Shown: positions 1,984 to 33,216 of the stretch, piece after piece
Layout of the letters: each line of letters starts with the position of its first letter
How positions within the stretch are numbered: position 1 is the stretch's first letter
NCBI GenBank assembly: GCA_016869145.1
Contig: VGEU01000002.1
Location: 1 to 64,000 of the forward strand
Origin: Alphaproteobacteria bacterium
GTDB taxonomy: Bacteria > Pseudomonadota > Alphaproteobacteria > MPNO01 > VGEU01
Direction: 5' to 3'
Length of the DNA: 64,000 nt
Translations under genes and position numbers: made by a program
The notes under the pieces: model-generated
What the model was told of the DNA's origin: nothing
Database searches by the model: none
The model's input: the letters and a program-made list of their open reading frames with translations, nothing else

Positions 1984-1986
1984 GGC

Positions 1987-4317: not shown

Positions 4318-4327
4318 CGTCGCGCCG

Positions 4328-5317: not shown

Positions 5318-5329
5318 GGTCTACTCCTC

Positions 5330-5346
5330 CCGTTCCGACCGAACGG
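5330..5346. promoter_or_regulatory. Inverted repeat in divergent promoter region
   Basis: CCGTTC-N5-GAACGG is a perfect 6-bp-arm inverted repeat, 13-29 bp upstream of the leftward GTG at 5317 and at the start of the region shared with the rightward gene. Its size and position suit a dimeric regulator, but it overlaps the edge of the leftward ribosome binding site, so it could also be an RNA hairpin. No regulator is known. Confidence 0.35.
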
Positions 5347-5457
5347 TTCTAGATCAGCACGGGCTCATTGTCGCGGCCGATCGTGTGTCGTCCTTTGACC
5401 CGCGGGCCGCGCTTGGCTAGGCTTGCCGCCCGAGGCTGGCGAACCGGCCCGGATCAT

Positions 5458-6477: not shown

Positions 6478-6541
6478 AACCACGGCACGAACCTGTCGCG
6501 AGGCCGTTCGTGTCGCGTCACATCACCTGTCGAGGCCGGTC

Positions 6542-8872
6542 ATGACGACGACGAAATTCGGCGTGGGCCAGTCGGTCCACCGGGTCGAGGACCCGCGCTT
6601 CCTTCGCGGCGAGGGCTGCTATGTCGACGACATCGTGCTCCCGCGCCAGGCTTATGCCTATGTCCTCCGCTCGCCGCACGCACACGCCGAGATCGCGCGG
6701 ATCGACACCATTGCGGCGCGCGATCTCGCGGGCGTGCTGGCGGTCCTGACGGGTGCGGATGCACGGGCGGACGGCCTCGGCGAGATTCCCTGCCTGATGA
6801 TGCCGTCCGACCGCGGCCTCACGGTGCAGGAGCACAAGGTGAGCCGTCCGATCCTCGCGGGCGAGCGCGTCCGGCACGTCGGCGAGCCGGTCGCGGTGAT
6901 CGTCGCCGAGAGCCTCGCCATCGCGCGCGACGCGGCGGAGCTGATCGAGATCGACTATGACGCCCGTCCGGCGTCGATATCGATCGAGGCCGCGCGCGCC
7001 GAGGCTGCGGCCCTGGTCTGGCCGACGATCCCGCGCAACCTCGCCTGGTCCTTCGCGATCGGCGACGAGGCGGCGACGAACGCCGCCTTCGCGCGCGCCC
7101 ATCATGTCACGCGCCTCGATATCACCAACAACCGGATCACCGCGAACTCGCTCGAGCCGCGCGGCGCGATCGGCGTCTATAGTCGCGGCGACGACCGCTA
7201 TACGCTCTACTCCAGCGCCCAGAACCCGCACCGGCTGCGACCGCAGCTCGCCCATTTCATCTTCCGCCAGCCCGAGACGAAGTTCCGCGTCATCGCGCGC
7301 GATGTCGGGGGTGGGTTCGGCATGAAGGGGACGTTCTATCCCGAGGAGGCCCTCGTCGTCTGGGCGGCACGTAAGGTCGGTCGCCCGGTCAAATGGATCG
7401 GCGAGCGGAGCGAGAGCCTGATCAGCGACACGCATGGGCGCGACCAACGTTGTCGCGGCGCGCTCGCGCTCGATGCCGACGGCCGTATCCTTGCGCTCCG
7501 CACCGACAGCGCCTTCGACATCGGCGCCTACATGACGACGAGCGGCGGCATCACCTCGGTGATCGGCACCGTGATGATGCCCAATGTCTATCGCATTCCG
7601 GCGATGTGGCTCCGCACCGAGGGCGTGATGACGCATTCCAGTCCGACCGCGCCCTATCGCGGCGCCGGCGGACCGGAGGCGATCTACGTGATCGAAGCGC
7701 TGATCGATCAGGCGGCGGTCGATCTCGGTCTCGATCCGGTCGAGATCCGCCGCCGCAACTTCATCCCGGCCGGCAGCATTCCGTTCACCACGCTGACCGG
7801 ACTGGTCTATGACAGCGGCGAGTATGAGACGCTCCTCGACAAGACCGTCGCGCTCGCCGACTGGGGTGGCTTCGCGACGCGGCGCGCGGGAGCGTCCGCG
7901 CGCGGCCGGCACCGTGGAATCGGTCTCTGCTACTATGTCGAGATGACCGCGATTCTGAACGACCGCATGGAGATCCGCTTCGATCCTGGCGGCAATGTCA
8001 CGATCGTGGCCGGCACGCTCAACTACGGTCAGGGCCACGAGACGGTGTTCGCCCAGATGGTCGCCGATTGGCTCGGCGTGCCGTTCGAGACGATCCGGCT
8101 GATCAACGGCGACACCGACCAGGTCTCGTTCGGCCGTGGCTCGTTCGGCTCGCGGAGCATGACCGTCGGCGGCTCGGCGCTACGGGGCGCTGCGGATCGG
8201 GTGATCGAGCGCGGCAGGAAGCTCGCGGCCCACTTCCTCGAGGCCGCTGAGGCCGATATCGCGTTTGCGGACGGCGGCTTCGCGGTCGTCGGGACCGATC
8301 GGGCGATCTCGCTCACCCGGCTCGCCCAGGCGTCCTACGCCCCGAACCTCCCCGATGCGCTCGGGCTCGGCATCGAAGGGGTCGGCACCTTCATGCCGGA
8401 GACGCCCAATTTCCCGAACGGTTGCCACATCTGCGAGGTCGAGGTCGATCCCGACACCGGAACGGTCGAGATCGTTCGCTATTCGATCGTCGACGACGTC
8501 GGCCGCACGATCAATCCGATGCTGCTCCACGGCCAGGTCCATGGCGGGGTCGCGCAGGGGATCGGCCAGGCCCTGATGGAGCACGTGGTCTATGAGCGCG
8601 AATCGGGCCAGCTGCTGGCTGGCTCGTTCATGGACTACTGCATGCCGCGCGCCGATGACATGCCGTTCTTCACCGTCGGCGCGCACGACACGCCGTGCAC
8701 GACCAATCCGCTCGGCGTCAAGGGCGCGGGCGAGGCGGGATGCGTCGGGGCGCCGCCCGCGGTCGTCGGCGCGATCCTGAACGCGCTCCGGCCGCTCGGC
8801 GTTCGCCACCTAGCGATGCCGGCGACGCCCGAACGCGTGTGGCAGGCGATCAGGACCGCGCGGTCGGCCTGA
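6542..8872 (+). CDS. Xanthine dehydrogenase-family molybdopterin-binding subunit (copy 2)
   Basis: A 776-aa molybdenum hydroxylase large subunit, the same length as the copy at 1987-4317. It begins with a segment like VHRVEDPRFLRGEGCYVDDI, has the GGGFGMKG Mo-cofactor loop near residue 258, and ends with GVKGAGEAG, placing the putative catalytic Glu at about residue 731. The active-site region reads APYRGAGGPE, which fits form II CoxL-like or BMS-type hydroxylases more than CO dehydrogenase. No iron-sulfur or FAD subunit gene follows it, so the holoenzyme must take partners from elsewhere. The arrangement with the upstream gene copies the leftward pair, suggesting two related substrates or steps. 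Confidence 0.9.
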   Translation: MTTTKFGVGQSVHRVEDPRFLRGEGCYVDDIVLPRQAYAYVLRSPHAHAEIARIDTIAARDLAGVLAVLTGADARADGLGEIPCLMMPSDRGLTVQEHKVSRPILAGERVRHVGEPVAVIVAESLAIARDAAELIEIDYDARPASISIEAARAEAAALVWPTIPRNLAWSFAIGDEAATNAAFARAHHVTRLDITNNRITANSLEPRGAIGVYSRGDDRYTLYSSAQNPHRLRPQLAHFIFRQPETKFRVIARDVGGGFGMKGTFYPEEALVVWAARKVGRPVKWIGERSESLISDTHGRDQRCRGALALDADGRILALRTDSAFDIGAYMTTSGGITSVIGTVMMPNVYRIPAMWLRTEGVMTHSSPTAPYRGAGGPEAIYVIEALIDQAAVDLGLDPVEIRRRNFIPAGSIPFTTLTGLVYDSGEYETLLDKTVALADWGGFATRRAGASARGRHRGIGLCYYVEMTAILNDRMEIRFDPGGNVTIVAGTLNYGQGHETVFAQMVADWLGVPFETIRLINGDTDQVSFGRGSFGSRSMTVGGSALRGAADRVIERGRKLAAHFLEAAEADIAFADGGFAVVGTDRAISLTRLAQASYAPNLPDALGLGIEGVGTFMPETPNFPNGCHICEVEVDPDTGTVEIVRYSIVDDVGRTINPMLLHGQVHGGVAQGIGQALMEHVVYERESGQLLAGSFMDYCMPRADDMPFFTVGAHDTPCTTNPLGVKGAGEAGCVGAPPAVVGAILNALRPLGVRHLAMPATPERVWQAIRTARSA

Positions 8873-8896
8873 CGCGCCAACGACGCCGACGCGCCC

Positions 8897-9571
8897 TCAG
8901 GCGAGCTGTCGACGGTCGACGGGCTCGGTCGCGATCTCCGACGCCGGCGCGCGCGACCGGCTCTCGCCGGGCGAGATCGCGAAAGCCATCGCGGGCTCGA
9001 GATACCAGACCCACGCCGGCGGCAGATTCGACCAGACATGCGCGACGCGGCGGCCCTGGAACCCGGCCTTCGCGATCGCTGCGCGCGAGGCCGGCGCGCC
9101 GAGGCTGTAGGTGAACTGGACGAACCGTCCCTCGACCGAGAGGAGATCATGGCTCTGCGTAAGGATCGCCTCCTGGGTCTCGCGCAACATCGAGAGGAGC
9201 GGAAGGCCGGAGACGACGGCCTGGGCGCCTCCCGTCGACCACAGGTCGACATCGGCGAGGAGATCGTGGAGCGCTTCCGCGCCGCCGTGGATGATCCGAA
9301 CGCGCGGGTAACGTTCGCGCAGGATATCGCAGAACCGCCGGTTCTTCTCGACCAGCACGAGGCGATCGGGCGCGAGGCCGGTGGCGAGCAATTCCTCGGT
9401 CAGCGATCCCGTGCCGGGACCGAGCTCGACGACAAGCCCCTTCTGGACTGGATCGACGACGCGCGCCATGGCGCGGGCCAGCGCCGATCCGCTCGGCGCG
9501 ACGGCGCCGATCTGAAGGGGATTACGCAGCCATGAAAAAAAGAATGTACCTGGACGGCTTGCTGTTTCCAT
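8897..9571 (-). CDS. Class I SAM methyltransferase, phospholipid N-methyltransferase (PmtA)-like
   Basis: A 224-aa SAM-dependent methyltransferase. Motif I reads VVELGPGTGSL near residue 47, with the acidic VLVEKNRRF strand after it. The N-terminus FFFSWLRNPLQIGAVAPSG is typical of alphaproteobacterial PmtA-type phosphatidylethanolamine N-methyltransferases and their KsgA-like relatives, which make phosphatidylcholine at the membrane. The C-terminal VWSNLPPAWVWYLEPA also matches that group. It is monocistronic and convergent with the molybdenum hydroxylase gene. A small-molecule or rRNA-type methyltransferase is the alternative. Confidence 0.7.
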   Translation of the reverse strand: METASRPGTFFFSWLRNPLQIGAVAPSGSALARAMARVVDPVQKGLVVELGPGTGSLTEELLATGLAPDRLVLVEKNRRFCDILRERYPRVRIIHGGAEALHDLLADVDLWSTGGAQAVVSGLPLLSMLRETQEAILTQSHDLLSVEGRFVQFTYSLGAPASRAAIAKAGFQGRRVAHVWSNLPPAWVWYLEPAMAFAISPGESRSRAPASEIATEPVDRRQLA

Positions 9572-9644
9572 GAATCAGTCGGTCGATGTGAGCGGCCCCC
9601 GAAATTCACCCCGCCGGCCGGCGTCCGACGCTGCCCGGCGCCCG

Positions 9645-10148
9645 TCACCCTCCATAGAACACCTTCTCGCCGAGGTCCTTCATCCAGAGGATCGCGTCGT
9701 CGGGACGCGCCGCCGGCGGCTTGGCCACCCGGGCGTCGACGACCTCGGCGATGACGATGTGATGATCGCCGCGCTCGACTATCTCGGCGACTTTGCATTC
9801 GATGCAGGCGATCGCGTTGTCGAGGATCGGTGCCCCGGTGGAGCCCTTGCGGATCGGCTCTCCGCTCAGCGTGTTGCCGTCACGCGAGGCGGGTTTGAAG
9901 AACGCGAACGCCGCGCCTTGCTGTCCCTTGCCCAGCATGTTGAGCGCGAAATGTGGCGTCTTGCGGAGGATCTCGCGGGCGCCCGAATCGGCCTTTACGC
10001 CGATCACGACGAGCGGCGGCGCGAACGAGGTCTGCGTCACCCAGTTGACAGTGGCGCCGGCGATCGTGCCGTCGGCCGCCTCGGCCGTCATGACATAGAT
10101 TCCATAGGGAATCATCCTGAGCGCCGTCTTCTTCGCGTCCGCGTCCAT
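9645..10148 (-). CDS. Flavin reductase-family (FMN-binding) protein
   Basis: A 167-aa protein started at ATG 10148 because GGGAGAGGG lies just upstream. It has the flavin reductase-like split-barrel pattern: RMIPYGIYVMTAE at the N-terminus, GATVNWVTQTSFAPPLVVIGV for flavin binding, HFALNMLGKGQ, and DAILWMKDLGEKVFYGG at the end. Members supply reduced FMN or FAD to two-component monooxygenases. An HpaB-type flavin monooxygenase component is encoded at 35849-37369, so it could be its partner, but the two genes are 25 kb apart and that pairing is only an inference. Confidence 0.8.
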   Translation of the reverse strand: MDADAKKTALRMIPYGIYVMTAEAADGTIAGATVNWVTQTSFAPPLVVIGVKADSGAREILRKTPHFALNMLGKGQQGAAFAFFKPASRDGNTLSGEPIRKGSTGAPILDNAIACIECKVAEIVERGDHHIVIAEVVDARVAKPPAARPDDAILWMKDLGEKVFYGG

Positions 10149-10249
10149 CGTTCCCTCTCCCTTCGCTCCCCTCGAACTTCGGCAAATAATTCCCGCAACG
10201 CGACGGCCTCCGCAAGGATGTTCTGCGCGGCACCGGGGGAGGGCGCGCA

Positions 10250-10444
10250 CTAGGCCGGAATCTCGATGGTCGCGCGGAGCCCGGGCAGGCCGCGGTGCTC
10301 GTACTGCGCGGCGCGCCGCACGATGAAGGTGCTCGCGAGCCAGTAGACGATGACGGTCAGGAGAAGAACCGACAGGGCGAACAGAGCGACATAGACGAGC
10401 CCGAGACGTGTGGTCGAGCTCCTGAGCAGCCTAGTCGGGTTCAC
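10250..10444 (-). pseudogene. Sensor histidine kinase remnant with internal deletion
   Basis: The 64-aa ORF starts inside the 3' end of the response regulator gene (14-bp overlap), the usual coupling of an OmpR-type regulator with its kinase. Residues 16-42 are a hydrophobic helix like the first membrane segment of a sensor kinase. Residues 52-64 (GLPGLRATIEIPA) look like the last strand of a kinase ATPase domain, where family members end with a similar PGLRxxLxxP. The sensor domain, second membrane helix, dimerisation His box and ATP-binding boxes are all absent. The simplest explanation is one in-frame deletion of about 1.1-1.2 kb. A genuine small membrane protein is possible but less likely. 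Confidence 0.65.
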
Positions 10445-11108
10445 GGATCACGTATCCGCTGCCGCGGACCGTGTGCAGCATGGGTCGGTCGAACTCCTTG
10501 TCGATCTTGCGGCGGAGACGGCTCACGTGCACGTCGATGACATTGGTCTGCGGATCGAAATGATAGTCCCATACCTGTTCGAGGAGCATGGTGCGCGTCA
10601 CCACGCGCCGCGCGTTCCGCATCAGCACCTCGAGCAGGCGAAACTCGCGCGGTTGGAGATCGATTCGCCGGCCGGCCCGGGTGACGGAACGGTCGAGGAG
10701 GTCGAGACGGAGCTCGCCCACCGCGATCGCCGTCGCGGCCTGCTCCGGAGTCCGCCGTCGCGCCAGCGCCTCGATCCGCGCCGCGAGTTCCGAGAAGGCG
10801 AACGGCTTGGCGAGATAGTCGTCGCCGCCAGCGCGCAGCCCGGCGACCTTGTCATCCGCCTGGGCGAGCGCGCTCAGGATCAGGACCGGGGTCGATCGTC
10901 CGGCGGCGCGGATCGCCCGCACGACCGCGAGGCCGTCGAGTGTCGGCAGCATCCTGTCGACGATCGCAACGTCGTATTCGGTCGACACGGCGAGGGCGAG
11001 GCCTGCGGCCCCGTCCGTCGCGCGATCGACGCGATGGCCCCACTCGCGCAATCCGGCCGCCAGATAGTCCGCGAGCGGCGCGTCGTCCTCGATCACCAAT
11101 AGCCGCAT
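10431..11108 (-). CDS. OmpR/PhoB-family response regulator
   Basis: A 225-aa two-component regulator. The N-terminal receiver has the acidic pair in LLVIEDDAPL, phospho-acceptor Asp in VAIVDRMLP (about residue 51) and the KPF lysine near 101. The C-terminal winged helix (about 130-222) includes LQPREFRLLEVLMRNARRVVTR and ends VHTVRGSGYVI-like. ATG 11108 is chosen because it begins the receiver domain exactly; an open frame continues upstream without homology. Its cognate kinase, overlapping its 3' end, is reduced to 64 codons, so phosphorylation must come from another kinase or small-molecule donors, or the regulator acts unphosphorylated. Confidence 0.92.
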   Translation of the reverse strand: MRLLVIEDDAPLADYLAAGLREWGHRVDRATDGAAGLALAVSTEYDVAIVDRMLPTLDGLAVVRAIRAAGRSTPVLILSALAQADDKVAGLRAGGDDYLAKPFAFSELAARIEALARRRTPEQAATAIAVGELRLDLLDRSVTRAGRRIDLQPREFRLLEVLMRNARRVVTRTMLLEQVWDYHFDPQTNVIDVHVSRLRRKIDKEFDRPMLHTVRGSGYVIREPD

Positions 11109-11276
11109 GGCCTTGCTCGAGACGCCTCGTTCCGGTTCGAACGCTACAGAGATAGGCGTCGGGGCGGCTCCGAAAAAGAGCCGGCGCTGTCCGGACCCCA
11201 CCCTTGCGCCGCGACTGAGGCGTGCCTACCGTACAGCCTCGGTCCGCGAAGACCGCTGGCACATAGGGTCCGCACC

Positions 11277-12149
11277 ATGACGACCATCATGCTGGGCGAG
11301 GTGGCGATCACGCCGATCATCGAACGGGACGGTCCGTGGCGGACGCCGTGGCAGCTCTTCCCGGCGATCGAGCGCCCGACGATGCTCGACCGGCTGGCTC
11401 GGCTCGAGCCGTTCCACTATGACCCGGCGAGCGAGCGGCTGGTGCTGACCTTCCAGAGTTTTCTCGTCCGCACGCCGCGCCATGTCATCCTGATCGACAG
11501 CTGCGTCGGCGATCACAAACAGCGGAAGCGCGACTACGACTACCCCAAGAAGCCCTGGCTCGACGGTTTCCTCGCCACCGGCCTTGCGTTCGAGGCCGTC
11601 GACTTCGTCTTCTGCACCCATATGCACGTCGATCATGTCGGCTGGAACACGCGCCTCGTGGATGGACGCTGGGTGCCGACCTTCCCCAATGCGCGCTATG
11701 TTTTCGCGCGCACCGAATACGAGTACTGGCGCGCCCAGGCGGCCATCGCGCCCGACCCATCCGGGCCGATCTTCGAGGACAGCGTGCTGCCGATCGTCGA
11801 GGCGGACCGCGCGGTGCTGGTCGAGGCCGACTACGCGATCGACGACACGGTATGGTTGACCCCAAGCCATGGCCACACCCCGGGTCACGTCTCGGTGAAT
11901 ATCGAATCGCGCGGCCAGCGGGCGGTCTTCACCGGCGACATCATGCATCATGCCGTCCAGTGCCTCGAACCGGGATGGAGCTCGTGCTTCTGCGCCGACC
12001 CCGTCCAATCGGCGACGACCCGCCGTGCGACGCTCGAGGCCTGCGCCGCCGAAGGGTCGCTGGTGGTCCCCGCTCATTTTCCGGCGCCGACCGCCGGTCG
12101 CATCGTTCCAGAAGGCGACGGCTTCCGGTTCCGATACCTCGCTCGTTGA
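11277..12149 (+). CDS. MBL-fold metallo-hydrolase (lactonase-like), paralogue
   Basis: A 290-aa metallo-beta-lactamase-fold hydrolase with THMHVDH at residues 114-120 (His115, His117, Asp119, His120), GHTPGH, FTGDIMHH and VVPAHF metal-ligand segments. It is a clear paralogue of the 1105-1983 product; both keep the FQSF-VRTPRH strand and the DGRWVPTFPNARYVFAR segment. It is followed by the YciI-like gene 37 bp downstream and the MDR gene, all in the same direction, which suggests one transcription unit. The substrate is unknown; lactone or ester hydrolysis is the family's usual activity. Confidence 0.85.
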   Translation: MTTIMLGEVAITPIIERDGPWRTPWQLFPAIERPTMLDRLARLEPFHYDPASERLVLTFQSFLVRTPRHVILIDSCVGDHKQRKRDYDYPKKPWLDGFLATGLAFEAVDFVFCTHMHVDHVGWNTRLVDGRWVPTFPNARYVFARTEYEYWRAQAAIAPDPSGPIFEDSVLPIVEADRAVLVEADYAIDDTVWLTPSHGHTPGHVSVNIESRGQRAVFTGDIMHHAVQCLEPGWSSCFCADPVQSATTRRATLEACAAEGSLVVPAHFPAPTAGRIVPEGDGFRFRYLAR

Positions 12150-12186
12150 GCCGCATCGCCGTCGCGGTGTCGGCAGGGAGAGATCC

Positions 12187-12501
12187 ATGCTCTACATCAT
12201 CTACCAGCTCGACAAACCCAACGCCGAGGCGATCCGCGCCGCCGCGCGCGAGGCCCACTTCAAATATCTCGACAAGCACGCCGACATATTGGTGCTGGGC
12301 GGCGCGCTTCTCGGCGAGGACGGCGTGACGCGAACCGGCAGCGTCCTGATCATCAACGTGCCGAGCAAGGCGGACGCCGACCAGTTCTCGGAGAACGAGC
12401 CCTTCCGCAAGGCCGGGCTGTTCCACACGGTCCAGATCAGCCGGATGCGGCGCGGCCAGTGGAATCCCGCGGCCGCGCCGAAGACGGCCGAAGGCAACTG
12501 A
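12187..12501 (+). CDS. YciI family protein
   Basis: A 104-aa protein started at ATG 12187, which follows GGCAGGGAGAG. It shows the YciI pattern: AHFKYLDKHADILVLGGALL, GSVLIINVPSKADADQF, then FRKAGLFHTVQI. These are small dimeric ferredoxin-fold proteins; characterised members include the muconolactone isomerase-like and chloromuconate dehalogenase TftG types, but most have no known reaction. Placement between a lactonase-like hydrolase and an oxidoreductase suggests a catabolic role, without proof. Confidence 0.85.
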   Translation: MLYIIYQLDKPNAEAIRAAAREAHFKYLDKHADILVLGGALLGEDGVTRTGSVLIINVPSKADADQFSENEPFRKAGLFHTVQISRMRRGQWNPAAAPKTAEGN

Positions 12502-12519
12502 GAACCGGGGAGCGGTGCG

Positions 12520-13443
12520 ATGAAGGCAGCCTATATCGTCGGCCACGGCGGGCTGGAGGTTCTTCGTTACGGCGACGTTCCCGATCCGGTGGCCGGCCCC
12601 GGCGAGGTCGTCGTCGATATCCATGCCGCGAGCGTCAACGGCGCCGACTGGAAGGTCCGCGCCGGGCACTACAGCCGCCTGAGCGCCTTTCCCTACGTGC
12701 TCGGCCGCGACTTCTCCGGCGTCGTCGCGTCGTGTGCGGCGGGCGTCAGCGATGTCGCGGTCGGCGATCCCGTGTTCGGCGTCTGCGAGATGGGCCAGGA
12801 GGGCGCCTATGCGGAGAAGATCGCGATCAAGTCGGCGCTCGTCGCGCGGAAGCCGGAGAGCCTCTCGCATGTCGAGGCGGCGGCGCTCGCCCTCGTCGGC
12901 CTGACCGCGCTCGTCTCGATCGAGGACACGCTCGGGCTGAAACGCGGCGAGACGATCCTGATCCACGGCGGCGCCGGCGGCGTCGCCGGATTCGCGATCG
13001 AGCTCGCCAAGCACATCGGGGCCCACGTCATCACGACCGCGAGCGCCGCCAACCACGACTACGTCCAGAGCCTCGGTGCCGATCGGGTCATCGATTACCG
13101 CAAGGAGGACATCACCAAGACGGTCTCCGATTGCGACGCCGTGTTCGACACGGTCGGCGGCGATGCCACGAGCGTATCCTTCGCGGTTCTCAAACCCGGC
13201 GGGCGCGCGGCCTTCATCGCCGGCGGCAACGCGCCGCCGCCGCCGCCGCGCCCGGACGTCCGCTCGCTCCGCCCCCGGGTGGCGCGCGATCGGCCGCACC
13301 TCGAGCGGATCTGCGCGTTCGTCGCGGCCGGGGCCGTGCGCGTGCCCGAGATCCACAGCTTTCCGCTGTCGTCGGTGGTGGAGGCGCATCGCGTCAGCGA
13401 GGGCCGGCATCTCCGCGGCAAGCTCGTCTTCAAGGTGCGCTGA
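12520..13443 (+). CDS. Zinc-independent MDR oxidoreductase (quinone reductase-like)
   Basis: A 307-aa medium-chain dehydrogenase/reductase. The N-terminal GroES-like domain has PFPYVLGRDFSGVV-type sequence, and the Rossmann part has ILIHGGAGGVAGFAIELAKHIGAHVI near residues 145-172. The structural and catalytic zinc cysteines of alcohol dehydrogenases are missing, so it belongs with NADPH:quinone oxidoreductases and enoyl reductases. It lies 18 bp after the YciI gene. Its stop codon touches the first unit of a palindromic GC-rich repeat array. Confidence 0.88.
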   Translation: MKAAYIVGHGGLEVLRYGDVPDPVAGPGEVVVDIHAASVNGADWKVRAGHYSRLSAFPYVLGRDFSGVVASCAAGVSDVAVGDPVFGVCEMGQEGAYAEKIAIKSALVARKPESLSHVEAAALALVGLTALVSIEDTLGLKRGETILIHGGAGGVAGFAIELAKHIGAHVITTASAANHDYVQSLGADRVIDYRKEDITKTVSDCDAVFDTVGGDATSVSFAVLKPGGRAAFIAGGNAPPPPPRPDVRSLRPRVARDRPHLERICAFVAAGAVRVPEIHSFPLSSVVEAHRVSEGRHLRGKLVFKVR

Positions 13444-13545
13444 ACCGCGCGCGGCGCGCGTATTCGATCAACCGCGCGCGGCGCGCGTATTCGATCAACC
13501 GCGCGCAGCGCGCGATTCGATCAACCGCGCGCAGCGCGCGCCTGG
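13443..13545. repeat. Short tandem array of GC palindromes
   Basis: Four head-to-tail units of about 26-27 bp lie between convergent genes. Each has a palindromic core of the type CGCGCGCGGCGCGCG (first two units) or GCGCGCAGCGCGCG (last two), separated by ATTCGATCAACC linkers; the fourth lacks its linker. Each unit can form a GC-only hairpin. The array begins at the stop codon of the MDR gene and runs into the 3' end of the opposite gene. There are no flanking cas genes and the linkers are identical, so it is not CRISPR. A REP-like element or a terminator array are possible readings. Confidence 0.8.
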
Positions 13546-14156
13546 CCGGCCAAGCCGTCGATCTGGGGCCGGTAGCCGGCCGCGATCACGGCGACGACCG
13601 GTCGCGGCGTGAGCACGAGGACCGTTCCGGTCCAGCGGAACGGCGCGCCATAGCCGGCGGCGCTCCATGGCCACAACGCGCCCTGGCAGACCAGAAACGC
13701 GGACGACGGCCGATCGGCGAGCGTGACGAGGACACCATCGGGCAGTTGGTCGACATCCCACGCATAGGTTCGCTTCGCGCCCCTCTCGTCGAGCCGCGCC
13801 GCATGGAGCGCGCGATCGAGTGCAGCGATCCCTGCGACGGGCTCGTGCACCGCCGCCCAGAGCGCGCGAAACCGGTCGAAATCGTGCCGCCGGCATTCGC
13901 CGCAGGGACGGTGGCCGGCGGCGAGCGCCGTCGCCTCGTCGAGAAAGAAGAGCTCGGTATAGCGGCCCGGCGTCATGACGCGCCGATGGCGGTCCTTGAA
14001 TTCGAGCCGGCACGTGATCCAGGCCCGCGTCGTCCAGCGCCGCCGCGACAATGTCCGATCGCTGCCATGCAGCACGCCGCGATTGCCCATCCACGCGCCG
14101 CGCGCCGGCGTCGCGACGATATCCCCGAAGGGTGTGACGCGGTTCTGCAGCGCCAC
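13521..14156 (-). CDS. Conserved hypothetical protein
   Basis: About 211 residues if it starts at GTG 14156; the frame is open further upstream but that part overlaps the ring-hydroxylase beta gene. I do not recognise a characterised family. Visible features are TPFGDIVATPARGAWMGNRG near the N-terminus, RRVMTPGRYTELFFLDEA, then AAGHRPCGECRRHDFDRFRALW with a CxxC, suggesting a metal site. The rest is beta-rich with WSAAGYGAPFRWTGTVLVLTPR. The C-terminus (LAGQARAARG) is encoded inside the palindromic repeat array, so the original stop may have been displaced. It starts about 12 bp after the ring-hydroxylase beta stop and could be co-transcribed. Confidence 0.6.
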   Translation of the reverse strand: MALQNRVTPFGDIVATPARGAWMGNRGVLHGSDRTLSRRRWTTRAWITCRLEFKDRHRRVMTPGRYTELFFLDEATALAAGHRPCGECRRHDFDRFRALWAAVHEPVAGIAALDRALHAARLDERGAKRTYAWDVDQLPDGVLVTLADRPSSAFLVCQGALWPWSAAGYGAPFRWTGTVLVLTPRPVVAVIAAGYRPQIDGLAGQARAARG

Positions 14157-14167
14157 CAGAATGGCCG

Positions 14168-14677
14168 TCAGATCGGATAGATGAGCGCGTTCGGAATGGT
14201 GAGCGAATCGTAGACGCAATGGCGCTCGCGCAGCAACAGCCGGCCATCGCGGCGCACGAACGTGTCCTGGTAGTGCCCGGCCTGGAAGAGCTCGGTCTTC
14301 TCCTCCATCAGCGTCTGGACGACGAGATAGTTGGCGCGCGCCTTGATCGCCCCTTCGGCGCGCACCTCGTCGATCGAGAGATTGCTGATGTAGTGGCGGA
14401 GAAAGCGCGGCTCGAACGTCGTCGTCCGGAGCGTCGCCTGCACGCGGTCCCTCATCATCTTCTTGCCGTCGCAATAGAGGAGACCGAGCGGCAGCCCGCG
14501 GTCGGCGTTGTCGCGCCCGGTCACCCGATAGAGCGCGTCATCGGTGAAGAAATCCGGCCAGCGCGTGATTTCTCCCGCATCGATGGCCTGCGCATAGGCG
14601 ACATGGAACTCCTCGATCTCGAGGCGGAGCGCCCAACGCTCCTCGAGCCTGGGAACAACGTTCCGGAGCGCGGTCAC
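14168..14677 (-). CDS. Aromatic-ring-hydroxylating dioxygenase, beta subunit
   Basis: A 169-aa protein of the small (beta) subunit family with a cystatin-like NTF2 fold. Features include a helical N-terminus RWALRLEIEEFHVAYAQAIDAGEI, WPDFFTDDALYRV, RHYISNLSI and RERHCVYDSLTIPNALIYPI at the end. It starts at GTG 14677 overlapping the TGA of the alpha subunit (GTGA), so the two are translationally coupled. The beta subunit is structural in the alpha3beta3 oxygenase. The reductase and ferredoxin components are not adjacent. Confidence 0.9.
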   Translation of the reverse strand: MTALRNVVPRLEERWALRLEIEEFHVAYAQAIDAGEITRWPDFFTDDALYRVTGRDNADRGLPLGLLYCDGKKMMRDRVQATLRTTTFEPRFLRHYISNLSIDEVRAEGAIKARANYLVVQTLMEEKTELFQAGHYQDTFVRRDGRLLLRERHCVYDSLTIPNALIYPI

Positions 14678-24083: not shown

Positions 24084-24257
24084 CGCGCTCGGTTCACGTC
24101 CGGGTCTCGATCCTTCCAATCGCCCGAGCGCCGTCGCGACGGGCGGTCATTGCGTACCACACTGTGCCTCATATAATGGCGCGCGCCCGGGCTGCCCACC
24201 CCGGCCGGCGCGAAACGCGTCGACGGCTTCGCCACGCCTTCGGTAGGGAACGACCCC

Positions 24258-25310
24258 GTGGGTCAGATCACCCATACATTGCAGAGCGGCGTATCGCGCG
24301 ATCTCGCCTCGGTCGCGCCCGACCTCATGCCCGCCGCCGCGGCGAGCCCGGCCCCCGACCCGGTCACGGGTATCCGGACTAAGACTTCCGACTTCATCCT
24401 CGAGGGATTCAAGTTTGGGTCGGTCATTTTCGGCACGCCGAGCGGCACGATCACGTGGTCGATTGCGGTGACCAATTTCGTCGCGCGCGAGCAGTACGAT
24501 TTCACCCTGTCGCGGCTCGGCTTCGAGGCGGCGCCGATCCTCGGCAAGGCATTCGCGACCTGGGCGTCCTACGCCAACTTGACCTTCCTGCAGGTGACAG
24601 ACGGCCCGGCTGTCGATATCCGCTTCGGCATGGGCAATTTCGACGGCCGGTCCGGTGTTCTGGCACGGACCTCGACGACCTTCTCGGGCGCCGAGACCCT
24701 CTATGCCGACATCGAGTTCGACGCCGCCGAGGTGTATTCACCGACCGGTGGCGGGAACTCGGTGAATTTCCGTCAGGTCGCGCTGCACGAGATCGGCCAC
24801 GCGCTCGGTCTCGACCACGAGGACCGCGTGCCGGCCCTGATGAACTCGATCCTGAGCCCGACCATCACAGGCCCGATCGACGACGACATCGCCGGCATCC
24901 GGGCCATCTATGGCGCCGCACCGCCGCCCCCATCGAGCGTTTCCCCCAGCTTCGCGGCCCTCTTCAATGATCAATTCTATCTGGCACAGAATCCGGACGT
25001 CGCGGCGGCCGGCGTCAATCCCAAGGCACACTATCTCGCGTTCGGGTCGAAGGAAGGGCGCGATCCGAACAGGCTCTTCGACACCGACTACTACCTCGCG
25101 CGCAATCCCGACGTGCGAAACGCCGGCGTCAATCCGCTGGAGCACTACGCGAGCTTCGGATTTCGAGAATCCCGCGATCCCGGCCCATCTTTCGACGTCG
25201 ATCTCTACCTGCAGGCCAACCAGGACGTGCGGCTGGTCGGGATCGATCCGCTGACGCACTACCTCAATTTCGGCGAGGCCGAAGGACGGGCGATCTTCCC
25301 GGCGGTTTGA
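24258..25310 (+). CDS. Matrixin-like zinc metalloprotease with three C-terminal 38-residue repeats
   Basis: A 350-aa protein starting at GTG 24258 after AGGGAACG. Residues 177-187, HEIGHALGLDH, form the zinc-binding motif of metzincins of the matrixin group, and ALMNS around Met195 is the Met-turn. After residue 220 a PPPPSS linker leads to three repeats of about 38 residues with the pattern FDxxYYLxxNPDVxxAGVNPLxHY and a GxxEGRDP end (about 235-350). No N-terminal signal peptide is visible, so export, if any, would need a C-terminal type I-like signal. Similar repeats occur in large secreted bacterial proteins. Function is unknown beyond probable proteolysis. Confidence 0.85.
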   Translation: MGQITHTLQSGVSRDLASVAPDLMPAAAASPAPDPVTGIRTKTSDFILEGFKFGSVIFGTPSGTITWSIAVTNFVAREQYDFTLSRLGFEAAPILGKAFATWASYANLTFLQVTDGPAVDIRFGMGNFDGRSGVLARTSTTFSGAETLYADIEFDAAEVYSPTGGGNSVNFRQVALHEIGHALGLDHEDRVPALMNSILSPTITGPIDDDIAGIRAIYGAAPPPPSSVSPSFAALFNDQFYLAQNPDVAAAGVNPKAHYLAFGSKEGRDPNRLFDTDYYLARNPDVRNAGVNPLEHYASFGFRESRDPGPSFDVDLYLQANQDVRLVGIDPLTHYLNFGEAEGRAIFPAV

Positions 25311-25460: not shown

Positions 25461-25931
25461 ATGCGGGTTCGCATCACCGAATATCTCGACATCGAACTCG
25501 AGTCCGAACGCTGGTGTTGCAACCGCTGCGGACACGACCTCGGCGACGCGCGCGAATCCTACAAGAAAGGCTGTCTCGTCCGCGATCGCGACCCACGCGA
25601 GATCCATTTTCCGATCGGACCGAGCAAGGAGTTCAACTTCTCCTTCGATCCCAATTGGATGCGGATCGTCGAGTTCTATTGTCCGGGTTGCGGCGTGATG
25701 GTCGAGAACGAGTATCTCCCGCCCGGCCATCCGCTGACCTGGGACATCCAGCTCGACATCGACAAGCTGCGGCAGAGACACGGCGTGACCGGGCCGAAGG
25801 TTGCGTCACGCGCGGCCCCGGCCACCAAACGCAAGAAAGTCGCGCGCGGCGGCGCGACCAAGGCGCCACGCAAGAAGGCAAGGCCGGCCGCAAAGGCCAC
25901 GAAGCGCGCGACTGCGGGACGCCGCAAATGA
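25461..25931 (+). CDS. Small zinc-containing subunit of acetone/acetophenone carboxylase-type enzyme
   Basis: A 156-aa protein. Cys20-x2-Cys23 and Cys74-x2-Cys77 form a zinc-ribbon pair, with FPIGPSKEFNFSFDPNWMRIVEFYCPGCG as in acetone carboxylase gamma and acetophenone carboxylase small subunits. Residues 112-156 are a tail of Lys, Arg, Ala and Pro resembling histone H1 tails, not typical of the family. The stop overlaps the next start (ATGA), so translation is coupled to the HyuA-like gene. It opens the long rightward operon; the 150 bp upstream holds no recognisable promoter. Confidence 0.75.
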   Translation: MRVRITEYLDIELESERWCCNRCGHDLGDARESYKKGCLVRDRDPREIHFPIGPSKEFNFSFDPNWMRIVEFYCPGCGVMVENEYLPPGHPLTWDIQLDIDKLRQRHGVTGPKVASRAAPATKRKKVARGGATKAPRKKARPAAKATKRATAGRRK

Positions 25932-28057
25932 CCATGCGCCTCGGCATTGACGTTGGTGGCACGTTCACCGACGTGGTCTTCCTCAAGGATGGCGAGATCT
26001 ATCGCGGGAAATCGGATACCACGCACTACGACCTGAAGCTCGGCTTCATGAACGCGACGCGCGTCGCGGTCGGCCGTGCCGGGCTCGAGCTCGAGGAGGC
26101 GCTGCGCGGCGCCGACGCCATCGTCTACTCGACGACCGTCGGCACCAACGCGCTGATCGAGCGTCGCGGAACCAAGCTCGGCCTCATCACGACCAAGGGC
26201 TTCGAGCACACGGTGCATGTCGGACGCGCCCGCAACTGGGGCGACGGCCTGCCGACGGAGAAGAAGTATGACCGCGGCCGTGCCGTGCGCCCGGTGCCGA
26301 TCCTGCCGCAAGACCGGATCGTCTCGGTCCAGGAACGGATCGACAATCTCGGCAATGTCATCATCCCGCTCCGCGACGACGATGTCCGGAGGCAAGTCCA
26401 GTATCTCGTCGATCAGGGTGTACGCGGCTTCGTCGTCGTGCTCCTCAACGCCTATGTCAATCCGATGCACGAACGGCGCATCGCCGAGCTGATCGCCGAG
26501 CAGTACCCGGATTGCTATCTCGGCCATATGCCGATCTTTCTCTCGCACGAGATCTCGCCCAAGAGCGGCGAGTATCGGCGCTCGATGACGGTGATCATCG
26601 ACGCCTATCTGCGCGACTTGACCGAGGGTCACCTCCTCCGCCTTTCCGACGACCTCCGCGATGTCGGCTACCGCCGGCCGGTCTTCGTCGCAAAGAACAC
26701 GGGCGGCCTGTCGTCCTTGTCGCGCACGCAAGCCCTCCACCTCCTCGGCTCCAGCCCGTCGGCGACCGTGATCGGCTCCGACTACATCGGCAAGGCGGTC
26801 GGCCACGCCAACGTCGTCGTCTCCGACATGGGCGGCACGAGCTTCGACGTCGGTCTCGTCGTCGAAGGACGCGATCGCGTCTACGAGTACGACCCCGTGG
26901 TCGAGCGCTACCGCGTGCAGATCCCCTATGTTGCGCACTGGTCGGTCGGCGCTGGCGGCGGATCGATCGCACGCATCGAGAACGGGGCGCTCCGCGTCGG
27001 GCCGCAGAGCGCGGGGTCCAATCCGGGTCCGGCCTGCTACAACCGCGGCGGCGAGGACGCGACGGTCACAGACAGCGACGTCATACTCGGCTATATCAAC
27101 CCGGACAATTTTCTCGGCGGCAAGCTCCGCATCGACCACGCGCTCGCCGAGCGCGCCGTGCGGACCAAGATCGCCGAGCCGCTCGGCGTGCCGCTCGAGG
27201 AAGCGGCGTGGAACATCAAGCGGCTGATCGACGGCTTCATGGGCCAGGAGATGTATCGCATCTGCGCCCTGACATCCGGCCAGGACCCGCGCGACTTCGT
27301 TCTTTTCGCCCTCGGCGGCGCGGGCCCCGTCCACGCGACCGGCTATGCCGACGGCACCGACGTCGGGCGCATCGCAACCTTCCCGTTCTCAAGCGTGTTC
27401 GGCGCCTTCTCGACGCTGACGCTCGATGTGCTCCAGACCTACGAGAAGACGCTCAACCTCAATCTCTACGCGCACCGCGACGAAAGCTACGCGGTCGACA
27501 ATATCGCGCGGTTCAACGCCGAGATCGACCGGCTGATGGCCTTCGCACGACGCGACATGACGGAGGAGGGTTTCGACATGGCGGGCGTCCAGCTCCAGGT
27601 CGAGATCCACATGTGCTACGGCCAGCAGCGCCAGACGCTCCCCATCCGCGTGCCGAAGGGCCGTCTCGAGAACGCCGCCGACGTCAAATATCTCTGCGAT
27701 ACGTTCAACGCCGCCTACGGCGAAAAATACGGCAAGGGCGCCGTCTATCCGGAGGCGGGCGTCGAGATGGTCGAGATGCGCCTCAACGCGGTCGGCCCGG
27801 CGGAGAAGTACCAACTGCGCCAGATCGCGGCCGACACCGATCCGGAGCGGTCGCGGACCGGCACGCGTAACGCATACTGGGGACCGAGCCACGGCTGGAT
27901 GATGACGCCCGTCTACGCCCGCGAATCGCTCGGTGCCGGCATACGCCTCCCCGGTCCGGTGCTTTGCGAGGCCGAGGACACGGTCATCGTCACACCGCCC
28001 GGCTGGACGTTCCGCGTCGACGACTGGAACGTCGGTTGGATCGAGCGGAACGGCTGA
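25928..28057 (+). CDS. Hydantoinase A/oxoprolinase-family carboxylase subunit (ATP-binding)
   Basis: A 709-aa ASKHA-fold protein. The nucleotide-binding motifs are DVGGTFTDVVF at the start and VVVSDMGGTSFDVGLV near residue 300, with VGAGGGSIARI after it. In hydantoinases, acetone carboxylase and acetophenone carboxylase this subunit phosphorylates the carbonyl compound or bicarbonate before bond making. It is coupled to the small zinc subunit upstream and followed 33 bp later by the HyuB-like gene, the core pair of such enzymes. Its size (about 78 kDa) matches the 75-kDa class subunit of acetophenone carboxylase. Confidence 0.88.
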   Translation: MTMRLGIDVGGTFTDVVFLKDGEIYRGKSDTTHYDLKLGFMNATRVAVGRAGLELEEALRGADAIVYSTTVGTNALIERRGTKLGLITTKGFEHTVHVGRARNWGDGLPTEKKYDRGRAVRPVPILPQDRIVSVQERIDNLGNVIIPLRDDDVRRQVQYLVDQGVRGFVVVLLNAYVNPMHERRIAELIAEQYPDCYLGHMPIFLSHEISPKSGEYRRSMTVIIDAYLRDLTEGHLLRLSDDLRDVGYRRPVFVAKNTGGLSSLSRTQALHLLGSSPSATVIGSDYIGKAVGHANVVVSDMGGTSFDVGLVVEGRDRVYEYDPVVERYRVQIPYVAHWSVGAGGGSIARIENGALRVGPQSAGSNPGPACYNRGGEDATVTDSDVILGYINPDNFLGGKLRIDHALAERAVRTKIAEPLGVPLEEAAWNIKRLIDGFMGQEMYRICALTSGQDPRDFVLFALGGAGPVHATGYADGTDVGRIATFPFSSVFGAFSTLTLDVLQTYEKTLNLNLYAHRDESYAVDNIARFNAEIDRLMAFARRDMTEEGFDMAGVQLQVEIHMCYGQQRQTLPIRVPKGRLENAADVKYLCDTFNAAYGEKYGKGAVYPEAGVEMVEMRLNAVGPAEKYQLRQIAADTDPERSRTGTRNAYWGPSHGWMMTPVYARESLGAGIRLPGPVLCEAEDTVIVTPPGWTFRVDDWNVGWIERNG

Positions 28058-28090: not shown

Positions 28091-30226
28091 ATGACCACGT
28101 TGTTCGAACGCCACGCGCGCCTGTTCGAGGGCTATGTCTACGAGCGCGATGTCTACGGTCGGCGCCCGGGTTGCGATCCCGACCTGATCTGCCGCGGCCT
28201 CGAGCCGATCACGGAGATCGAGCGCCGTGGCCTATCGAAGGTCAGCGACGTCGACGTCGATCTCCTCAGCCACAAGCTCACCTCGATCGTCGAGGAGGCG
28301 CGCGATGTCTATACCGCGCTCTCGATCTCCGAGGGCGTGATCATGGGCGACATGAACTGCGGTCTGTTCACCGCGTCCGGCGATCCCGTCGCGGTCGGCA
28401 CCGGGATCTACTTCCACACGCTCCTCAACAACGCCCAGCTCAAATACATTCTCAAATACTACAAGAACGACCCCTCGGTCGGGCTCGCCGACGGCGACGT
28501 GTTCTTCTTCAATGAGGAGCTCGCGGGCGGTGTCCACAATCTCGACATGTTCACGGCGATGCCGATCTTCTGGGAGGGCGAGCTCGTCGCATGGGCCGAG
28601 GTCGGCGGACACCAGGGCGAGACGGGCTCGATCACCCCGGGCGGGTTCGCGCCGACCGCGAAGTCGCGCTACGAGGAAGGCATCCACCTGCCATGCATGC
28701 GGATCGGCCGGAACTTCGAGCTCCGCCAGGATATCCTGGATTTCATGGCAGGCTCGGTCCGCAACGGATTCGTGTTCGTGTCCGACCTCAAGTCGCGGGT
28801 CGCGAGCCTGTTCCAGTCGCGCCGCCGCTTCCTGCGCGAGATTGAGCGGCGCGGCGTCGAGGCGGTGTGCGCCGGCATGCGCCGGATTCTGATCCGCGGC
28901 GAGGAGCAGGCGCGGGCGCGGATTCGCGAGGTGAACGACGGCATCTTCCGCTCGATCCTGTTCAATGACGAGCACGGCACCTTCTTCGGGCTGAGCCGGA
29001 TCCCGGTGACGGTGATCAAGGAAGGCGACGAGATGGCGATTCTCGCGCAGGGCGTTTCGCCCCAGTGCGAGGACGGGCCGTTCAACTCGAGCTGGCATCT
29101 ATCGCGCGCGGCGACGGCGGTCTACCTGTTCTCGTATTTCTTCCGCGGTCTGCCGCCCAATGCCGGGCTGCTCGAGCCGGTCAAGTACTACATCGAGGGT
29201 CCGTCGATGCTGAACTCGATGGACGAGCTCGCCCACGGCCTCGCCAACCAGGTCTGCGCCTTCGTCACCCAGAACATGTACATGGCGGGCGCCAAGATGC
29301 TGTTCGACAGCCCGTACCGAATCGCGGTTCAGGCGCCGCATTCGCGCAACTACATGCTGCCGATCTTCGCCGGCAAGAACCGCCGCGGCTACTATGGCGC
29401 GAACTTCACCGGCACGACCAACGCGGCGGGTGGCGGCGGCCGCTACGACATGGACGGCGAGCCGGCGCTCGGCTTCTACTGGGGGCCGTGGACCGATGCG
29501 GGCGAGGTCGAGGATATCGACGAGCGCCTGCCGCACTTCATCCTCGCTCGCCATCTCGACAAGAACTTCCACGGCTATGGCCGCTATCGCGGCGGCACGC
29601 CGCTGATGGAGGTCGCGACCGTCTGCGGCGACGACGGCTGCGTGTTCTCGAGCTGGGGCTCGTGCGACAAGGTCACGTTCAATTTCGGCCTGTTCGGCGG
29701 CTATGCCGGTCCGCCGAATCCGCGCTTCATCATCCGCAACAGCGATTTCTTCGACCAGATTAAGGCGGGCAAGGACGTCAAGCTCGGCCAGTACCAGCTC
29801 CTGACAGAGAAGAACCTCAAGGGCAACTATCTCCTGTCGTCGAGCTCCAAGGACGCCGAGCCTCTGCGTGAGGGCGACATCATCGTCCACAGCGTCGGTG
29901 CCGCGGGCGGCTATGGCGATGTGCTCGAGCGCGATCCCGAGGCGGTACTCAAGGACCTGGAGGACGAGCAGATCACCGCCGACGTGGCGGCGAAGATCTA
30001 CGGCGTCGTCATCGACGCGAAGACCGGCCTGATCGATGCGGTGAAGACCGACAAGCAGCGCGCCGCGATACGCCGCGAGCGCCTGGCGAAGGGAAAGCCG
30101 TTCGATCAGTTCATCGCCAAGTGGCTGGCGCTCAAGCCGCCGGCGGAGATCCTGACCCGCTATGGCGGCTGGCCGGAGCCGCAGGTCCCCGGCTATCGCA
30201 AGCCGTTCTGGGGCCTTTACACCTAG
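28091..30226 (+). CDS. Hydantoinase B/oxoprolinase-family carboxylase subunit
   Basis: A 711-aa HyuB-type subunit, the partner of the HyuA-like gene. Recognisable parts are the DPDLICRGLEPITEIERRGL N-terminus of acetone/acetophenone carboxylase subunits, FFFNEELAGGVHNLDMFTAMPIFW with acidic residues and a His for the metal site, and GGHQGETGSITPGGF. In acetone carboxylase the corresponding subunit carries the metal site where C-C bond formation occurs. The long insert relative to plain HyuB and its size near 80 kDa agree with the carboxylase branch. It lies in the middle of the five-gene set. Confidence 0.85.
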   Translation: MTTLFERHARLFEGYVYERDVYGRRPGCDPDLICRGLEPITEIERRGLSKVSDVDVDLLSHKLTSIVEEARDVYTALSISEGVIMGDMNCGLFTASGDPVAVGTGIYFHTLLNNAQLKYILKYYKNDPSVGLADGDVFFFNEELAGGVHNLDMFTAMPIFWEGELVAWAEVGGHQGETGSITPGGFAPTAKSRYEEGIHLPCMRIGRNFELRQDILDFMAGSVRNGFVFVSDLKSRVASLFQSRRRFLREIERRGVEAVCAGMRRILIRGEEQARARIREVNDGIFRSILFNDEHGTFFGLSRIPVTVIKEGDEMAILAQGVSPQCEDGPFNSSWHLSRAATAVYLFSYFFRGLPPNAGLLEPVKYYIEGPSMLNSMDELAHGLANQVCAFVTQNMYMAGAKMLFDSPYRIAVQAPHSRNYMLPIFAGKNRRGYYGANFTGTTNAAGGGGRYDMDGEPALGFYWGPWTDAGEVEDIDERLPHFILARHLDKNFHGYGRYRGGTPLMEVATVCGDDGCVFSSWGSCDKVTFNFGLFGGYAGPPNPRFIIRNSDFFDQIKAGKDVKLGQYQLLTEKNLKGNYLLSSSSKDAEPLREGDIIVHSVGAAGGYGDVLERDPEAVLKDLEDEQITADVAAKIYGVVIDAKTGLIDAVKTDKQRAAIRRERLAKGKPFDQFIAKWLALKPPAEILTRYGGWPEPQVPGYRKPFWGLYT

Positions 30227-31245: not shown

Positions 31246-33216
31246 ATGTACAGCATAGACATCGACATCGGTGGAACCTTCACCGACGGATTCTTCACCG
31301 ACGGCAAGGACGTCCGCATGGAGAAGGTGCTGTCGACGCCGCACGACATCACCGAGTGCTTCATGAATTGTGTCGCCGCCGGCAGCAACGCGTTCGGCCT
31401 CGATCTCGCCGAGTTCCTGCGCCGGTCGTCGGTCGCGCGCGTCTCGACCACGGTCGGCACCAATCTGATCGTACAGCGCTCCGGACCGCGCCTCGGCCTC
31501 ATCGTCACCACGGGCCACGAACAGGATCTCTACGGCACCGGCAAGGCGCCGATGCTCGACCATTTCGTGCGTCAGGACATGGTGTTCGGCATCAGCGAAA
31601 GCGTCGACGACAAGGGCGATGTCGTCCGCCCGCTCGACACCGACGCGCTCCTCGCCGCGGTCCGCGAGCTCGTCCACGCCGGCGCGCGCATGATCGTGAT
31701 CAGCTTCCGGAACGCCTGGCGCAACGCGGCCAACGAGCATGCCGCGCGCACCGCGATCCGCGCCCGCTATCCGATCCACTATCTGAGGTCGGTGCCGCTG
31801 CAGTTGGGGACCGACATCGCCCATGTCGGCGACGACCACAGCCGCACGAACTCGGCGCTCCTCAACGCCTATATCCACAGCGAGATGGCGCGCACGCTCT
31901 ACCGCGCCGAGGACAAGATCCGGTCGGCTGGCTTCCGCAATCCCCTCCTGATCGTCCATTCGAATGGCGGCAACGCGCGCGTCGCCAAGACCATCGCCCT
32001 CAACACGCTTCATTCCGGTCCGGCGGTCGCGGCACGCGGTGCGGCGGAGCTCGCGGGCCTCCTCAAGCTCAAGAAGGTCGTCACCGCCGACATGGGCGGC
32101 ACCAGCTTCGACATGGCCGTCATCGACAGCGGCGACGTCCGCTACGAGGGCGAGCCCGAGATCGACGGCGTGCGCATCGCGGTGCCGATGATCTCCGTCG
32201 ATTCGCTCGGCGCGGGCGGCGGCTCGATCGCGCGCGCGAATGACGGGAAGCTCACCGTCGGACCCGATAGTGCCGGCTCCGCACCGGGTCCGGCGAGCTA
32301 TGCCAAGGGCGGCGTCGAGCCCACCGTGACCGATGCGAACGTCGTTCTCGGCTTCATCGACCCCAACTACTTCCTCGGTGGACGCATGACGCTCGACCGC
32401 GCGGCGGCGGAGCGCGCGATCGAGCGCCGCGTCGCGCGCCGGCTCGGCATCTCGGTGCCGGAGGCCGCCTTCGATATCCGCGCCGAGATCAACCGCGCGA
32501 TGGGCGAGGAGATGAGGCTCCGCCTGCGCGAGCAGGGTCACAAACCGTCCGGGTTCGCGATGTTCGCCTTCGGCGGCGGCGGCCCGCTGCACGGCTGCGC
32601 AATCGCCGATCACGTCGGGATTCGCCGGATCGTGGCGTTTCCGTTCGGCTCGGTCTTCAGCGCCTATGGCGGCTCGACGACGAGCGTCCAGCATCACTAT
32701 GCCAAGACGGTCAACCTCACGACCGGCGGTGTCGCGGAGATCGATGCCGTCCTCGCCGCGCTCCGCGACCAGGCCGAGCGCGACATGGTCGGCGAAGGTT
32801 TCGCGCTGTCCGACATCCACTACGCCGCGGGCGTCGAGGTGGTGGTCGGCGCCAAGCGCGCTTGGCACGACAAGAGCGGCAAGCGCGTGCGCGCGAAGGA
32901 CATCCTCGCCGGTGCCGGTCGCCGGGCGTCGATCGAGCAGATCAGGCTCACGGCCCGTTGCGACGTGCCGCACTGGAACCCCGCCGCGGTCAGGAAGCTC
33001 GCCAAGGGCCGGCCGGCTGCGAAGACGCGACGGCCGATCGGCTGGGAGCGCGGACGGGTCACCGACACGCCGATCTACGATCGCGACCGGCTGTCGCCCG
33101 GCCATGTCGTCGAAGGCCCGGCGCTGGTCGAGGGTCCGGATACGGCCTATGCTGTTGCGCCGGGTTGGCGTCTCGAGGTGGACCCGTTCGGCAGTCTCGT
33201 TATGATCCGGTCCTGA
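31246..33216 (+). CDS. Second hydantoinase A/oxoprolinase-family carboxylase subunit
   Basis: A 656-aa HyuA-type protein with DIGGTFTDGFF at the N-terminus, ADMGGTSFDMAVI near residue 285 and SLGAGGGSIARA after it. It is clearly different from the HyuA-like product at 25928-28057, so the operon encodes two ASKHA subunits, as acetophenone carboxylase does (70 and 75 kDa alongside an 87-kDa HyuB-type subunit). One of the two may be catalytically silent; both here keep the glycine-rich phosphate loops. The start codon ATG 31246 lies 37 bp after the upstream stop. Confidence 0.88.
   Translation: MYSIDIDIGGTFTDGFFTDGKDVRMEKVLSTPHDITECFMNCVAAGSNAFGLDLAEFLRRSSVARVSTTVGTNLIVQRSGPRLGLIVTTGHEQDLYGTGKAPMLDHFVRQDMVFGISESVDDKGDVVRPLDTDALLAAVRELVHAGARMIVISFRNAWRNAANEHAARTAIRARYPIHYLRSVPLQLGTDIAHVGDDHSRTNSALLNAYIHSEMARTLYRAEDKIRSAGFRNPLLIVHSNGGNARVAKTIALNTLHSGPAVAARGAAELAGLLKLKKVVTADMGGTSFDMAVIDSGDVRYEGEPEIDGVRIAVPMISVDSLGAGGGSIARANDGKLTVGPDSAGSAPGPASYAKGGVEPTVTDANVVLGFIDPNYFLGGRMTLDRAAAERAIERRVARRLGISVPEAAFDIRAEINRAMGEEMRLRLREQGHKPSGFAMFAFGGGGPLHGCAIADHVGIRRIVAFPFGSVFSAYGGSTTSVQHHYAKTVNLTTGGVAEIDAVLAALRDQAERDMVGEGFALSDIHYAAGVEVVVGAKRAWHDKSGKRVRAKDILAGAGRRASIEQIRLTARCDVPHWNPAAVRKLAKGRPAAKTRRPIGWERGRVTDTPIYDRDRLSPGHVVEGPALVEGPDTAYAVAPGWRLEVDPFGSLVMIRS

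Follow-up and report, generated by a model that had tools for sequence, protein, structure and literature searches.

A matrixin protease with no signal peptide and a C-terminal array of NPDV repeats: a candidate type I substrate in an alphaproteobacterium

The window analysed here is the whole 64,000-nucleotide stretch of contig VGEU01000002.1, taken from an alphaproteobacterial assembly (GCA_016869145.1). It contains a complete open reading frame on the forward strand, starting with GTG, which encodes a matrixin-type protease followed by three tandem repeats. The features of the gene are the following:

24245..24249, + strand: Shine-Dalgarno-like AGGGA, 8 nt 5' of the GTG start (read from the sequence)
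24258..25310, + strand: matrixin protein with three 38-residue repeats, 350 aa, pI 4.7, zero cysteines
24537..24914, + strand: M10 matrixin catalytic domain, aa 94-219 (PF00413, E=4.6e-21; best PDB phmmer match MMP-9, 1.6e-13)
24786..24818, + strand: zinc site HEIGHALGLDH, aa 177-187 (sequence, aligned to MMP-9)
24840..24842, + strand: Met-turn methionine, aa 195, in ALMNS (alignment to MMP-9)
24915..24962, + strand: proline-rich linker (AAPPPPSSVSPSFAAL), from the sequence; a PPPP linker is likewise present in the relative L099
24963..25076, + strand: NPDV repeat 1, aa 236-273 (repeat alignment)
25077..25190, + strand: NPDV repeat 2, aa 274-311 (repeat alignment)
25191..25304, + strand: NPDV repeat 3, aa 312-349, ending EGRAIFPA (repeat alignment); V350 alone stands before the stop

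Upstream of the GTG the frame remains open as far as an in-frame TAA at 24174, and no ATG, GTG or TTG lies in between. The only near-start is a CTG at 24192, which is followed by no hydrophobic stretch. A missed upstream start supplying a signal peptide, which the sequence-only reading had named as the observation that would overturn its proposal, was ruled out on this ground. The GC content at third codon positions is 0.83, against 0.50 at the second position, as in a coding gene. The upstream neighbour, a protein-L-isoaspartate methyltransferase gene, is divergent and starts at 24119. Directly downstream lie an acetophenone carboxylase beta-like gene (25461-25931) and an ApcC/hydantoinase-like gene (25937-28057), and further frames that look like acetophenone carboxylase or hydantoinase, assigned by look alone, occupy 28091-30226 and 31246-33216; these genes have no evident link to the protease. 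The loss of a downstream RTX region through a frameshift was also considered and rejected, as only 150 bp separate the gene from the next one, the acetophenone carboxylase subunit-like gene.

The catalytic domain scores 75.8 bits against the Peptidase M10 matrixin profile (PF00413, curated cut-off 24), and both the HExxHxxGxxH zinc site and the Met-turn (M195) are intact. By PDB sequence search, human MMP-9 and MMP-1 are the closest proteins of solved structure. Alignment to MMP-9 and direct reading revealed that the calcium-region motifs FDGxxGxLA and D-x-x-F-D are retained in the alignment, and that the structural-zinc histidines of the MMPs are missing. A full-length single-sequence structure prediction reached a pLDDT of 31.8 and was left out of all readings. 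With karilysin and the human MMPs (M10A) the protein shares the HExxHxxGxxH catalytic domain and the MMP-type Met-turn, but it differs from them in having no Sec signal, no cysteine-switch propeptide of the kind found in human MMPs, and no structural-zinc histidines. Defined by a Sec signal plus a cysteine-switch propeptide, M10A does not include it, since it has no hydrophobic core and no cysteine. Serralysins (M10B) are a textbook case of the metzincin fold without a signal peptide and with type I secretion, and they have a tyrosine after the Met-turn (MSY). The window protein resembles these PrtD-dependent RTX metalloproteases as a metzincin with no signal peptide and presumed type I export. 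However, its Met-turn is of the matrixin type (MNS, not MSY), no PF00353 (RTX) or PF08548 (Peptidase_M10_C) match was found in it with Pfam, and it reaches only 30 bits against the NCBIfam model NF035945, whose cut-off is 500.

The repeats start at residues 236, 274 and 312, with a period of exactly 38 and pairwise identities of 21, 16 and 19 of 38. Their summed identity is 56, a value reached by none of 100,000 within-repeat shuffles (shuffle maximum 23). The earlier description of a metzincin joined to three 38-residue repeats is therefore correct. The NPDV unit is defined here as the tandem 38-residue F[DN]xxYLxxNPDVxxAGxNPLxHYxxxGxxEGRdP, and the three units of the window protein are 44-60% identical to 65 other arrays. 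An AlphaFold2 model of the array, built on a 66-row alignment (pLDDT 94.9, pTM 0.87), predicts with high confidence that the three repeats fold into a compact all-helical block, to which each repeat contributes three to four short helices. No Pfam model matched the repeat, even at E=10; a PDB sequence search with the repeats returned chance matches only, and Foldseek of the array model against the PDB gave no match (best probability 0.02). In the literature searched, the repeat was found neither as a motif string nor as "NPDV" combined with repeat and secretion. The matrixin enzyme itself is fairly ordinary, but no description of the widespread NPDV tail module was found in the databases and papers searched, and a separate family model for it is warranted.

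The presence of a Sec signal was assessed by a crude test, in which 12-residue hydropathy was compared with four reference signal peptides rather than scored by a trained predictor. This test found no Sec-like hydrophobic core near the N-terminus: the best N-terminal value, 1.43, falls within the protease region, and the signals of OmpA, PhoA, TEM and MBP reach 2.0-2.6. Together with the lack of an alternative upstream start, this agrees with the original observation that an N-terminal signal is missing. The accompanying claim, that such a state is unusual for the matrixin fold, did not hold. A catalytic-domain search over 385 genomes of the class found matches in 16 genomes, the bacterium's own included, and among the 17 readable best alphaproteobacterial relatives a clear Sec signal was seen in L162 only. 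Most of these 17 carry RTX nonapeptides, and two (L155, L159) have a DUF5648-like tail instead. The two closest relatives (G037, 42-43% identity) are signal-less and combine matrixin with CARDB or Calx-beta and with RTX. Relatives encoded on plasmids of Pseudorhizobium, Rhizobium and Sulfitobacter bear the annotation DUF4214; the sequence of the Pseudorhizobium one was read, and it is a matrixin without a signal and with repeats of the DUF4214 type. The window protein belongs with the signal-less alphaproteobacterial matrixins (L007, L013, L155 and Pseudorhizobium flavum WP_152338526) in the same catalytic subfamily, at up to 42-43% identity, but its C-terminal module differs from their RTX, DUF4214 or DUF5648 tails. 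Since its nearest relatives are signal-less and vary in their C-terminal modules, it appears, judged by sequence, to be one version of a type I-associated matrixin group in which this module is variable.

An architectural twin was found in Pseudoroseomonas rhizosphaerae (L099:6961-8781), where a matrixin domain, a PPPP linker and C-terminal repeats again occur with no signal and no RTX; unlike the window protein, it has six repeats and carries an additional insert of about 150 residues. This twin bears on the possibility that the window gene is a non-functional remnant of a decayed or truncated RTX serralysin, a reading that would fit the lack of RTX, the single copy of the gene and the absence of the same architecture from relatives in a sample of 26 genomes of its order. 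The zinc site, the Met-turn and the ribosome site are nevertheless intact, GC3 is that of a coding gene, the third repeat is complete and ends as it does in relatives, and an independent protein has the same design, all of which makes decay very unlikely. The window gene encodes a well-formed protease that is probably exported.

The search for type I secretion genes, which the sequence-only reading had proposed as a check, was carried out in the bacterium's own genome (3.93 Mb, 247 contigs, 99% complete) and was successful. One PrtD-type ABC exporter was found on contig C18 (759.7 bits, cut-off 510), adjoined by an HlyD adaptor (401 bits, cut-off 209), both above the curated cut-offs; the pair lies close to an RTX gene that is truncated where the contig ends. 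The matrixin gene is not near these genes. Apparent sugar epimerase, dTDP-sugar and methyltransferase genes surround the PrtD-HlyD region (L036:493-1299 and 1421-14433; neighbour names read from sequence). The genome also holds a serralysin-type gene on C16, with M10_C, RTX and DUF5648, and three further repeat genes, on C25, C139 and C162. The C25 gene has three repeats plus RTX and the C139 gene four repeats plus an RTX/S-layer-like region, so that repeat and RTX are joined within the same genome. C139 adjoins glycosyltransferase and epimerase genes, again named from sequence. In C162 (L038:3-1779) two repeats are followed by Calx-beta and pre-peptidase-like domains in an interrupted reading frame, which may reflect a pseudogene or a fault in the assembly.

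A scan of the genome collection with the full-length window protein gave no matches. With the repeat alignment as query, 328 relatives were found in the same collection, in a sample biased by query and phylogeny. The best 80 of the 328 correspond to 78 loci, mainly from Methylobacterium, Microvirga, Acetobacteraceae and Sphingomonas, with outliers in Chromatium, Oscillatoria, Acidobacteria and Spartobacteria. In 77 of 104 complete frames the array closes the protein at its C-terminus, with few residues after it, and its copy number is mostly a multiple of three (six copies in 44 frames, three in 20). In 17 of the 104 it is N-terminal, ahead of other domains such as RTX in L109. Pfam, run on 58 frames with C-terminal arrays and on the window protein, matched RTX in 22, matrixin in 6 and M10_C in 4, with single cases of subtilase, alginate lyase, alkaline phosphatase, a phytase-like protein and GDPD; in about 60% of the C-terminal-array proteins Pfam detects no RTX. 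The enzymes matched are of extracellular types, but by the crude hydropathy test a Sec-like core is missing from nearly all of the proteins.

Arrays at the N-terminus or in mid-protein are partnered by RTX, and also by glycosyltransferases, RgpF and WbsX. The original remark that such repeats are seen in large secreted proteins is thus true as far as it goes, but incomplete, as glycosyltransferases carry the repeat too. A Foldseek search of BFVD returned confident matches mostly to giant-virus glycosyltransferases and hypothetical proteins, at about 24-36% identity, which is the NPDV module in another context. The viral glycosyltransferases include those of Hyperionvirus and Fadolivirus, an occurrence that suggests extensive transfer of a module that may be related to glycans. 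Since the module is also present in glycosyltransferases that are probably cytoplasmic, it is by itself no mark of export.

The link to type I secretion comes from gene context and protein ends. In seven of the 78 named loci (L050, L055, L063, L087, L091, L100 and L108) the repeat gene has a strong PrtD or HlyD match in its neighbourhood. In L050, from a Hyphomicrobiales MAG, PrtD and HlyD overlap by 4 bases and are followed by three co-directional repeat-tailed genes, the first two of which have no RTX match. Across 385 genomes of the class, the repeat is present in 33, PrtD in 112 and both in 18, a modest co-presence (18/33 repeat genomes with PrtD; odds ratio 3.3, P=0.002). Proximity is more marked: in 4 of the 18 genomes that carry both, PrtD has a repeat gene no more than 5 kb away, whereas random placement would give 0.17 such genomes (P about 5e-5). 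A C-terminal [FLI][VAI] has been described as a statistical hallmark of type I substrates (PMC8861453). This ending occurs in 24 of 78 C-terminal-array proteins and in 8 of 261 other frames of the same loci (31% vs 3%), being about ten times commoner than in neighbouring frames (P=5e-11, without correction for relatedness). The window protein ends in FPAV; its AV is a loose fit only, not a strict [FLI][VAI]. Its zero cysteines and pI of 4.7 were also counted in favour of type I export; type I substrates are usually cysteine-poor.

These observations bear on the choice, left open by the sequence-only reading, between type I secretion and an intracellular role. An intracellular protease that is never exported, with repeats serving as a cytoplasmic docking module for proteins or glycan precursors, would agree with the missing signal peptide and with the repeats of glycosyltransferases and related enzymes, those of giant viruses included. 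Against it, the nearest matrixin relatives carry RTX, a mark of extracellular calcium-dependent folding, C-terminal arrays occur on typical extracellular enzymes with T1SS-like tails, and repeat genes lie within T1SS operons. An intracellular role thus receives little support and is quite unlikely, while the type I alternative gained from the genome's own PrtD and HlyD and from same-tailed relatives in or beside type I operons.

The explanation that we favour, with a probability of roughly 0.6, is a type I-exported matrixin protease with a helical tail that binds the surface or glycans; the export part, taken by inference, is well supported. The protein would be an extracellular matrixin-type zinc endopeptidase, synthesised without a Sec signal, exported from the cytoplasm in one step by the genome's PrtD-HlyD system and read from its C-terminus. 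Outside the cell the catalytic domain, whose active site is intact, would cleave proteins. The C-terminal array would occupy the position held by RTX repeats in relatives, and it is most likely a tether or binding module, perhaps, as a guess, for the cell's own surface glycans. The hints for this guess are that the repeat recurs in glycosyltransferases, that the T1SS genes lie among apparent sugar genes and that C139 adjoins glycosyltransferase and epimerase genes. From the tail statistics of relatives, the best candidate for the export signal would be the very end of the protein, beyond the final repeat.

RTX repeats are usual, not obligatory, in type I substrates. Substrates without RTX are known (PMC3034196): the PrsDE system of Rhizobium leguminosarum exports Rap proteins that interact with EPS (PMC9298526) and also glycanases lacking RTX (PMC3034196). 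By analogy, a glycan-binding role for the tail is plausible. The PrsDE substrates (Rap proteins with CHDL domains, the glycanases PlyA and PlyB) resemble the window protein in presumed or known type I export with RTX not always present, but they carry CHDL or glycanase domains, not a protease with helical repeats. The same precedent would suit a protein whose array is only a surface- or EPS-binding domain, with the export signal elsewhere or another route taken, and the N-terminal arrays ahead of RTX and other domains suggest a portable module for which the C-terminal place is not required. The array is, however, the very end of the protein in most complete frames, with few residues beyond it, and we regard an array without an export role as unlikely. 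A broader proposal, that the C-terminal NPDV array with its short tail is an RTX-independent type I module, of helical fold without a PDB match, which replaces RTX in delivering and folding or tethering many alphaproteobacterial exoenzymes, is tentative and on balance doubtful.

Type I substrates are usually recognised by their RTX repeats, and with some 60% of the C-terminal-array proteins having no such match in Pfam, automatic annotation misses them as exported. A named model for the NPDV repeat would bring to light a group of exoenzymes from Methylobacterium, Microvirga, Acetobacteraceae and others. Given such a model, the small 350-residue window protein would make RTX-free type I export directly testable.

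Two further observations concern the ends of related proteases. Many signal-less alphaproteobacterial matrixin and serralysin relatives (L154, L156, L159, L160, L166, L168 and L015) open with a short cysteine-rich, CxCxxC-like leader, which is odd for type I substrates and is lacking in the window protein. Tails of the DUF5648 type (YRFFNTxTGxHFFTA) are found on M10 proteases without a signal (L155, L159 and L041), two of them apparently without RTX, and may represent another non-RTX type I tail.
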